From Minisyncoccota bacterium (GTDB lineage: Bacteria > Patescibacteriota > Minisyncoccia > Phycocordibacterales > UBA9973), in assembly GCA_017991915.1 (NCBI GenBank), contig JAGOPQ010000003.1:1-45933 (forward strand): a DNA stretch of 45,933 nt, written 5' to 3'. This document shows, piece after piece, positions 4,765-5,659 of this stretch. A program made the position numbers and the translations under genes. Position 1 is the first letter of the stretch, and each line of letters begins with the position of its first letter. The notes under the pieces were generated by a model. That model did no database searches. It saw only the letters and a list, made by a program, of their open reading frames with translations, and was not told the origin of the DNA.

Positions 4765-5169
4765 ATGTATATTACTTTTATATTATTCTTTATATCATTG
4801 GCGGGAATCATGCTCATGGTGGGACGCAAGCTCGCCCCAGTACGAAATGGTCAGATATTCGCCCAAGAATACCCTCACCCGTTTGTACCACACATTGAAA
4901 ACCTAAAACGTTTTAGTTACAAGAGTCTTAGAAAATACGAACACATAGCTCTGGTAGCTACACTGCGGATGTATGTTCGTTTTTCAAACTACACCAAATA
5001 CTCATACTCAGTCTTAGTAGCTAAAATAAAGACCGCCATAAATAAAGACCGATTTGATGGAGATACCGCCGACAAGAGAGAGATATCTAAATTCCTGAAA
5101 ATTATTTCCGATTACAAGAAGAGAGTTAGAAATATCAAGCACAGAATTAAAGAGGAAGAAATGAAGTAG
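4765..5169 (+). CDS. small membrane-anchored protein of unknown function
   Basis: 134 residues. The first 20 are a hydrophobic segment (MYITFILFFISLAGIMLMVG) that would anchor the protein with a basic soluble remainder, rich in Lys and Arg, on one side of the membrane. The C-terminal 40 residues look helical (FLKIISDYKKRVRNIKHRI). I do not recognise a family. Position two bases after tsf means that it is probably the third gene of the rpsB-tsf transcript. The codon composition matches its neighbours, so it appears native. Confidence 0.75.
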   Translation: MYITFILFFISLAGIMLMVGRKLAPVRNGQIFAQEYPHPFVPHIENLKRFSYKSLRKYEHIALVATLRMYVRFSNYTKYSYSVLVAKIKTAINKDRFDGDTADKREISKFLKIISDYKKRVRNIKHRIKEEEMK

Positions 5170-5172
5170 TTG

Positions 5173-5181
5173 TGTTAGAAT
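5173..5181 (+). promoter_or_regulatory. extended -10 of the original tRNA-Thr promoter
   Basis: TGT-TAGAAT (hexamer 5176-5181), the same hexamer as at rpsB. The expected transcription start, about 5188, is five bases before the tRNA-like 5' fragment at 5193, as expected for a tRNA gene. No good -35 is visible. The promoter now precedes the truncated copy, the GIY-YIG gene and the intact tRNA. Confidence 0.5.
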
Positions 5182-5192
5182 GTTTGTTGTAA

Positions 5193-5251
5193 GCCGCCTT
5201 AGCTCCCCGCCCGTACCGAACGGCACGTTCGGGCGGGAGTTGGTAGAGCAA
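5193..5251 (+). pseudogene. duplicated 5' end of tRNA-Thr split by a palindrome
   Basis: Bases 5193-5205 and 5238-5251 together repeat the first 27 bases of the intact tRNA-Thr at 5499 exactly (acceptor 5' strand, D arm). A 32-base palindrome interrupts them between the 5' strand of the D stem and the D loop. The rest of the tRNA is missing; A+T-rich sequence and the GIY-YIG start codon follow. The fragment cannot make a tRNA, yet it occupies the position directly behind the promoter, suggesting that this was the original tRNA locus. Confidence 0.8.
5206..5237. repeat. G+C-rich palindrome inside the tRNA fragment
   Basis: The outer arms CCCGCCCG (5206-5213) and CGGGCGGG (5230-5237) are perfectly complementary. 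With a four-base bulge the pairing extends inward to GAACG/CGTTC around a GCA loop, about 12 pairs in all. The composition is far from that of the surrounding A+T-rich DNA. The tRNA D stem (GCTC/GAGC) can still pair around it, so a transcript would carry an enlarged D arm. Confidence 0.8.
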
Positions 5252-5265
5252 TAAATGCCAATTAT

Positions 5266-5508
5266 ATGTTTACAGTCTATGTACTAAAAGACAAAGACGA
5301 GAAAGTATATAAAGGTATGACAAATAACCTGAACAGAAGATTGTCAGAGCATAATTCAGGCCACACACAAACAACAAGTAGCATGAAAAAACTTAGACTT
5401 GTGTATAAGGAAGAATATGCTACATTTGAAGAAGCCAGAAAAAGAGAGTTGTATTTTAAGTCAGCTGCAGGAAGAAGATTTTTGAAGAAACAAATAACGC
5501 CGCCTTAG
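5266..5508 (+). CDS. GIY-YIG nuclease-domain protein, single domain
   Basis: 80 residues, consisting only of the GIY-YIG fold: TVYVL near the N-terminus, VYKGMT about ten residues later, NNLNRRLSEHNSG, and the catalytic-glutamate region EARKRELYFKSAAGRRF. Such stand-alone domains (UPF0213/YhbQ-like) are common in bacteria; their job is mostly unknown, while related domains act as homing or repair nucleases. The stop codon TAG lies inside the intact tRNA-Thr (bases 8-10 of the tRNA), and a copy of the tRNA 5' end lies just upstream. The gene is thus enclosed by tRNA sequence, which suggests insertion into the tRNA gene. No Shine-Dalgarno sequence. Confidence 0.88.
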   Translation: MFTVYVLKDKDEKVYKGMTNNLNRRLSEHNSGHTQTTSSMKKLRLVYKEEYATFEEARKRELYFKSAAGRRFLKKQITPP

Positions 5509-5574
5509 CTCAGTTGGTAGAGCAACGCTTTTGTAAAGCGAAGGTCCTCGGTTCGAATCCGAGAGGCGGCTCCA
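5499..5574 (+). tRNA. tRNA-Thr (anticodon TGT), CCA encoded
   Basis: Cloverleaf by eye: acceptor GCCGCCT/AGGCGGC, D arm GCTC-AGTTGGTA-GAGC, anticodon loop TTTGTAA with anticodon TGT (reads ACA/ACG), T arm CTCGG-TTCGAAT-CCGAG, discriminator T, then an encoded CCA (5572-5574). The first anticodon-stem pair is an A-A mismatch. The first ten bases also hold the 3' end of the GIY-YIG gene. No separate promoter is evident, so expression probably depends on transcription from 5176 through that gene. Confidence 0.95.
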
Positions 5575-5588
5575 TATAAAAAGCAAAA

Positions 5589-5630
5589 GGGGCGCTCCCA
5601 ACGTAATCATTCAATTACGTGGTGCGCCCC
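5589..5630 (-). terminator. terminator of unit C1
   Basis: Nested stem: outer GGGGCGC (5589-5595) with GCGCCCC (5624-5630), inner ACGTAAT (5601-5607) with ATTACGT (5614-5620). Read on the minus strand the hairpin is followed by TTTTGCTTTTTATA, so it should stop transcription of the gene that ends at 5660. On the plus strand no T run follows. Confidence 0.75.
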
Positions 5631-5659
5631 TGTGATTAATGTAAGAACATATTCGTTGT

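Follow-up and report, generated by a model that had tools for sequence, protein, structure and literature searches.

How does a short GIY-YIG nuclease gene come to run into an intact tRNA-Thr(TGT) gene, and why do the first letters of that tRNA also occur on the far side of the nuclease gene? The window, meaning the whole stretch of 45,933 nucleotides that was analysed, is contig C4 of a 0.57 Mb Minisyncoccota genome (94% complete), and the gene order ahead of the insert is rpsB, tsf and a 134-aa ORF, with tsf homologues present in 58 of 60 relatives. The features of the locus are collected in Table 1. According to the original prediction, nucleotides 1-27 of the tRNA were doubled, and both halves of this copy, hereafter the leader, are exact, although they are not contiguous, a 32-nt hairpin having been placed after nucleotide 13. 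The stop codon of the nuclease ORF does lie inside the intact tRNA as predicted, since its TAG (5506-5508) forms tRNA nucleotides 8-10, and the final codons also fall within the tRNA. The extended -10 element that had been read ahead of the fragment is visible by eye as TGTTAGAAT, with the tRNA 5′ copy beginning 12 nt 3′ of it, although a strict two-hexamer -35/-10 scan did not detect it at 5173-5181.

Table 1. Features of the tRNA-Thr locus, in positions of the window
Feature	Position	Strand	Remark
134-aa ORF, insertion-site marker	4765..5169	+	homologues in congeners lie directly 5′ of intact tRNA-Thr(TGT)
Probable extended -10 element	5173..5181	+	TGTTAGAAT, spotted by eye
Leader part 1, copy of tRNA-Thr nt 1-13	5193..5205	+	GCCGCCTTAGCTC, exact repeat D2
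Hairpin in leader D-arm, 32 nt, GC-rich	5206..5237	+	CCCGCCCGTACCGAACGGCACGTTCGGGCGGG; MFE -17.6, z -2.4
Leader part 2, copy of tRNA-Thr nt 14-27	5238..5251	+	AGTTGGTAGAGCAA, exact repeat D1
GIY-YIG nuclease ORF, 80 aa, SLX1/UPF0213-like	5266..5508	+	Pfam GIY-YIG PF01541, 2.5e-14
tRNA-Thr(TGT), intact, contiguous	5499..5574	+	tRNA call

Because no second close match to this tRNA-Thr(TGT) was found in the assembly, where the two weaker matches were tRNA-Val and tRNA-Ile, the cell probably depends on the gene in the window. A consensus scan found no promoter within the GIY-YIG ORF, and transcription of the tRNA appears to start ahead of the nuclease gene and to pass through it, as had been proposed, unless a promoter lies inside the ORF. 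The split-copy score of the window was 27, a value reached by none of 176 mismatched-tRNA controls (largest 21). Directly 3′ of the tRNA, a stem GGGGCGC...GCGCCCC (5590-5632) is possibly a terminator; no strict terminator match was obtained for it.

Two familiar kinds of insertion were rejected for this locus. A group I intron carrying a GIY-YIG ORF does not fit, since the tRNA in the window is contiguous rather than split, and Rfam returned only the tRNA and no intron at the L004 locus. Nor does a tRNA-integrating genomic island, for which a tyrosine recombinase and a site at the tRNA 3′ end would be expected, since the sole ORF of the cassette encodes the GIY-YIG protein and it is the 5′ end of the tRNA that is duplicated, not the 3′ end. 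No tyrosine (Y1) transposase of the IS200/IS605 or REP type was present among the ORFs inside the cassette.

Comparison of the tRNA-Thr(TGT) locus in relatives bore out the prediction of an insertion at the tRNA gene. In nine congeners (L038, L039, L040, L041, L043, L044, L046, L057 and L059), the homologue of the 134-aa ORF leads directly into an intact tRNA-Thr(TGT), with neither nuclease nor duplication, and occupied and empty alleles of one conserved site are thus present between species of a single genus. Two more genomes were occupied at tRNA-Thr(TGT), namely G034 (L090) and a Nomurabacteria bin (L127). The L127 nuclease is 82% identical to that of the window, and the hairpins there are differently placed. 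Apparent leader remnants with no ORF were seen ahead of tRNA-Thr in G027, G016 and G050 (L042, L047 and L054), and in G056 (L166) a leader and hairpin precede tRNA-Val, again with the ORF absent. At L127 (3001-3340), the 3′ end of tRNA-Thr is divergent and unpaired with the 5′ strand of the acceptor, possibly through damage or an assembly join. In L093 and L178, a second hairpin-broken tRNA 5′ copy, which has no ORF, separates the stop of the nuclease gene from the intact tRNA, an arrangement suggestive of stacked or decayed cassettes.

Other GIY-YIG genes with tRNA fragments were also sought, and the arrangement recurred in dozens of genomes. A search with the protein of the window gave matches in 51 of 60 relatives' genomes, and among the 95 ORFs at loci from this search alone, 28 ended at an intact tRNA. 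When 286 genomes of the class were searched with a profile, members were detected in 242, with up to 15 per genome and with several diverged GIY-YIG copies per genome. The genomes surveyed are mostly metagenome bins. Same-strand intact tRNAs started between -60 and +130 nt from the ORF stop at 88 of 217 distinct GIY-YIG loci, a share that is overstated because the profile was built mostly from tRNA-linked copies. At 130-500 nt from the stop, a same-strand tRNA was found at 8 of the 217 loci, and an opposite-strand tRNA was found at none of them in either range. The tRNAs beside the 88 linked ORFs cover 16 amino acids, and the commonest offset from stop to tRNA was -9 (14 loci), which places a TAG stop at tRNA nucleotides 8-10.

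The same anatomy was also seen in Bacteroidota and in contigs classified as viral, where a profile scan gave five loci, of which two showed a clear tRNA leader. In annotated phages, the GIY-YIG relatives were just 37-38% identical. At three loci of a Bacteroidota bin (L292, L295 and L298), the GIY-YIG gene stops inside partial copies of tRNA-Lys, a tRNA-Asp-like sequence and tRNA-Val, with none of the leader anatomy of the CPR cases. At L106 and L305, the cassette-bearing tRNA-Asn also seems to be broken in the anticodon loop, and L106 adjoins a group I intron. A match to LOOT RNA (RF03000) was found downstream of a cassette-carrying tRNA-Asn (L104, 1156-1277, minus strand).

Upstream regions of the linked ORFs aligned with the neighbouring tRNA at a median score of 14, compared to 7 for mismatched tRNAs. 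Leaders were scored by a split model, tRNA(1..x) + insert + tRNA(x+1..k), in which the start at nucleotide 1 is imposed; a free chain alignment likewise began at nucleotide 1 in most cases. At a threshold that 0.6% of mismatched controls pass, 42 of the 88 loci have a leader copy, and 52 have one at a looser threshold that 2.8% of the controls pass. About half of the tRNA-linked loci had no leader above the strict threshold, and additional leaders are discernible by eye, but these are diverged or derive from another tRNA sequence. Leaders copy the first 16-48 nt of the tRNA, from mature nucleotide 1, and contain one to three GC-rich hairpins; the inserts, mostly hairpins of 18-54 nt, are placed with tRNA letters neither lost nor gained. 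Per kb, leaders hold 6.5 hairpins, compared to 0.45 in the background and 1.1 in the regions that precede other GIY-YIG genes.

Two main hairpin designs were observed, a single palindrome, often CCTGCCTGCCGGCAGGCAGG, and a pair of adjacent 15-nt mini-hairpins. CCTGCCTGCCGGCAGGCAGG is identical in Patescibacteria and a Bacteroidota bin; the idea that the hairpin is one fixed dispersed repeat was nevertheless rejected, since CCTGCCTGCCGGCAGGCAGG is dispersed but leader hairpins have many sequences. Of 42 hairpin sites, 39 were in or beside the D-arm and 2 in the anticodon loop, and, as read from alignments, L245, L248 and L280 also seem to have a T-loop hairpin. Insertion into loops only was rejected as a rule: 20 of the 42 sites lie within the D-loop or at its edge, but another 19 are in other parts of the D-arm or next to it, and only the preference for the D-arm holds. 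A simple target-site duplication including the promoter was rejected as well, because the 6 nt that precede the leader resemble those that precede the tRNA weakly at best (41% compared to 32% when shuffled, a value reached by 12 of 500 shuffles, 17 loci).

The protein belongs to the SLX1/UPF0213-like branch of the GIY-YIG superfamily, as judged from the domain and the conserved Tyr, Arg and Glu positions of the active site. The nearest solved structures in a profile search were the UPF0213 proteins 1zg2 and 1ywl (6e-13), followed by SLX1, and Y5, Y15, G17, R25 and E61 were invariant in 16 sequences. ORFs of the family encode 80-90 aa, a minimal single domain. Because dN/dS was 0.06-0.12 wherever it could be computed (0.10 between the window and L127), the protein is under purifying selection.

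The nuclease gene is the likely agent of insertion, as was first suggested, because its clades follow tRNA identity. On a tree of the 88 tRNA-linked nucleases, the amino acid of the tRNA changed 43 times, compared to 64 (57-69) when shuffled, and the distinction between tRNAs with a long variable arm (Leu, Ser, Tyr) and other tRNAs changed 8 times, compared to 25 (20-30). Host family on the same tree was hardly non-random, with 59 changes compared to 63 (59-65). Thus, nucleases keep their tRNA type while crossing bacterial families. In one case (L267 and L274), ORFs 98% identical occur in two genera of one family, between unrelated flanks and ahead of differing tRNA-Gln genes, and the conserved block extends from nucleotide 1 of the leader tRNA copy (within about 3 nt) to the ORF stop. 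The leader, hairpin and ORF are therefore the unit that moves. In 21 sister pairs, preselected for leader match and with proteins 59-81% identical, 237 of 246 informative positions in the leaders agreed with the tRNA of the same locus; the agreement spans both sides of the hairpin, whose type and place often follow the clade. Exceptions, in which the leader was copied from a tRNA sequence other than that of its neighbour, were L236, L239, L016, L274 and L283. These comparisons across genomes show horizontal movement with fidelity to the target tRNA. They also change one part of the original prediction, in which the left fragment was the remnant of the original gene: it need not be passive, since the leader of L267 and L274 travels with the element, and in sister elements the leader usually agrees with its local tRNA both before and after the hairpin.

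We therefore need an account in which gene, leader and hairpin belong together. The one that we favour, with moderate confidence, is that the cassette in the window belongs to a large family of mobile, tRNA-specialised cassettes, each composed of a leader, one or more hairpins and an SLX1-like GIY-YIG nuclease. Comparison across genomes shows recurrence, the strand and position rule, empty sites, horizontal transfer, the fit to tRNA identity and purifying selection on the protein. For cleavage, the mechanism of insertion and the roles of leader and hairpin, we infer the following course. Lying between the tRNA promoter and the intact tRNA, the cassette would be transcribed as one RNA with leader, nuclease message and tRNA. 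The nuclease may nick or cut tRNA genes of matching type, perhaps when these are folded or form a cruciform, and the cassette could then be copied in at nucleotide 1 by repair or recombination that uses the tRNA homology of the leader. Only insertions that leave the tRNA whole, with a clean start at nucleotide 1, would survive. A probable task of the hairpin is to keep the leader from serving as an additional tRNA 5′ half that pairs with the 3′ half of the tRNA, or from recombining with the intact copy, or back out. RNase P, acting at the 5′ end of the tRNA, would trim the nuclease message and leave it stopless where the stop lies in the tRNA, which may limit expression. The main gap in this account is that the intact neighbouring tRNA is itself a would-be target, yet it is spared.

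A bolder form of this proposal, which we hold only tentatively, makes the leader, a host-matched tRNA 5′ half with its hairpin, a working part, a tRNA-mimic address that would guide a generic SLX1-like nuclease, and the whole a new class of mobile element. The address could be one of homology or structure in DNA, or an RNA bound by the protein. The element would then spread among matching tRNA genes and stay near-neutral by keeping the tRNA whole.

The strongest rival covers much of the same evidence. The cassette might excise as a circle with one tRNA 5′ copy and integrate by a single crossover at the 5′ end of a chromosomal tRNA. Such a copy would resemble an attP that corresponds to the 5′ end of a tRNA instead of the 3′ end, and the GIY-YIG protein would do the nicking. 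The ORF does lie between direct repeats of the tRNA 5′ end, most leaders agree with the local tRNA before and after the hairpin, and a single crossover would restore the tRNA and yield a copy that starts at nucleotide 1. However, the cassette has no recombinase, its sole ORF being the GIY-YIG gene, and no circle was seen; the L274 leader has a foreign acceptor strand, an outcome not expected from a crossover inside the copy, and the hairpin is left unexplained. We consider this rival unlikely, though not negligible.

Somewhat less likely again is a reading in which mobility is secondary and the leader functions within the message as a tRNA mimic that regulates the nuclease, is bound by it or deflects tRNA-processing enzymes. 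Between the window and L127, synonymous sites are near saturation (dS 1.25), yet the leaders are 27/27 and about 25/27 identical to the tRNA, so the leader must be preserved by selection, by conversion with the tRNA next to it or by renewal at every insertion, and either of the latter two would also keep it identical. The mini-hairpins keep all of their pairs (100%) across ten leaders, with two-sided changes in 17 cells compared to 5.5 in shuffles, but the same pattern could arise if different palindromes had been captured independently. Homing endonuclease genes of phages are known to be controlled by 5′ RNA hairpins (PMC2988022). The hairpins here do not obviously cover the start codon, and the window and L127, both at tRNA-Thr, differ in where the hairpin lies and in its sequence. 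It is very improbable that an SLX1-like housekeeping gene lies ahead of tRNAs by chance, with tRNA pseudogene debris upstream, because, although the family is usually assigned to DNA repair (PMC1564403), the strand and position rule is strict over 16 amino acids, empty sites exist, clades follow tRNA identity across host families and genomes hold several diverged copies. An assembly artefact or chance repeat is hardly credible, although many such genes lie near contig ends, because dozens of independent genomes share this anatomy, and it is found in Bacteroidota and in contigs classified as viral too, a recurrence that, together with a split-copy score beyond all controls, excludes a chance repeat.

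Should the mobile cassette be the right reading, it would show a very small selfish gene persisting at essential tRNA genes with no intron, intein or integrase, in compact genomes, and would account for many of the short GIY-YIG genes that lack annotation in CPR bacteria. Since nuclease clades fit tRNA identity, the choice of target can be tested directly, and the hairpin-broken leader would provide a natural experiment for the study of how tRNAs fold, of RNase P processing and of structure-specific nucleases.

GIY-YIG relatives were also observed in other settings. Some lie at the start codons of protein genes (L018, L020, L021, L022, L025, L068, L071-L073, and the pairs L212/L226 and L231/L260), within inverted repeats of 12-20 nt, CCCGTTAGAGAT...ATCTCTAACGGG and variants, with the ATG and the 2-3 next letters on both sides. 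At L105, a GIY-YIG ORF with inverted repeat flanks lies inside a 16S rRNA gene, near a 5′ hairpin that corresponds approximately to E. coli helix 6. GIY-YIG ORFs at L097, L121 and L125 are near same-strand tmRNA genes, and Rfam confirmed the tmRNA in L097 and L121.

In a literature search, with most subscription journals out of reach, we found no description of a tRNA-linked GIY-YIG cassette. As a candidate, the cassette would work like a free-standing homing gene, with a leader anatomy for which we found no counterpart. The seg genes of T4-like phages are close in kind: they are intron-free GIY-YIG genes, present or absent between conserved genes, some with hairpins in the 5′ leader, and SegB lies in a tRNA cluster, between tRNA-Arg and tRNA-Ile (PMC2988022, PMC13096335). 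They differ in that no hairpin-broken tRNA 5′ copy has been described for them and their cut sites lie away from the gene, whereas the cassette clades cover tRNAs of 16 amino acids with the gene at tRNA nucleotide 1. GIY-YIG inserts in the rRNA genes of CPR bacteria, of which L105 is a 16S case, share the host group and the GIY-YIG ORF in an insert reported to be neither a group I nor a group II intron; the study that reported them considered GIY-YIG spread to lie outside homing, does not treat tRNA genes and describes no leader copy (PMC11270868). SLX1 and bacterial UPF0213 proteins, the closest solved sequence relatives, have the same minimal single domain, but are regarded as enzymes of DNA repair or recombination. 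To our knowledge, neither is known to drive a tRNA-specific cassette. In integrative elements that attach at tRNA 3′ ends, the tRNA gene is partly duplicated and kept functional, as it is here. The cassette differs from them in its use of the 5′ end, its lack of an integrase, its size of about 0.3 kb and the hairpin inside the duplicate, and there is a real chance that it is a new kind of element.
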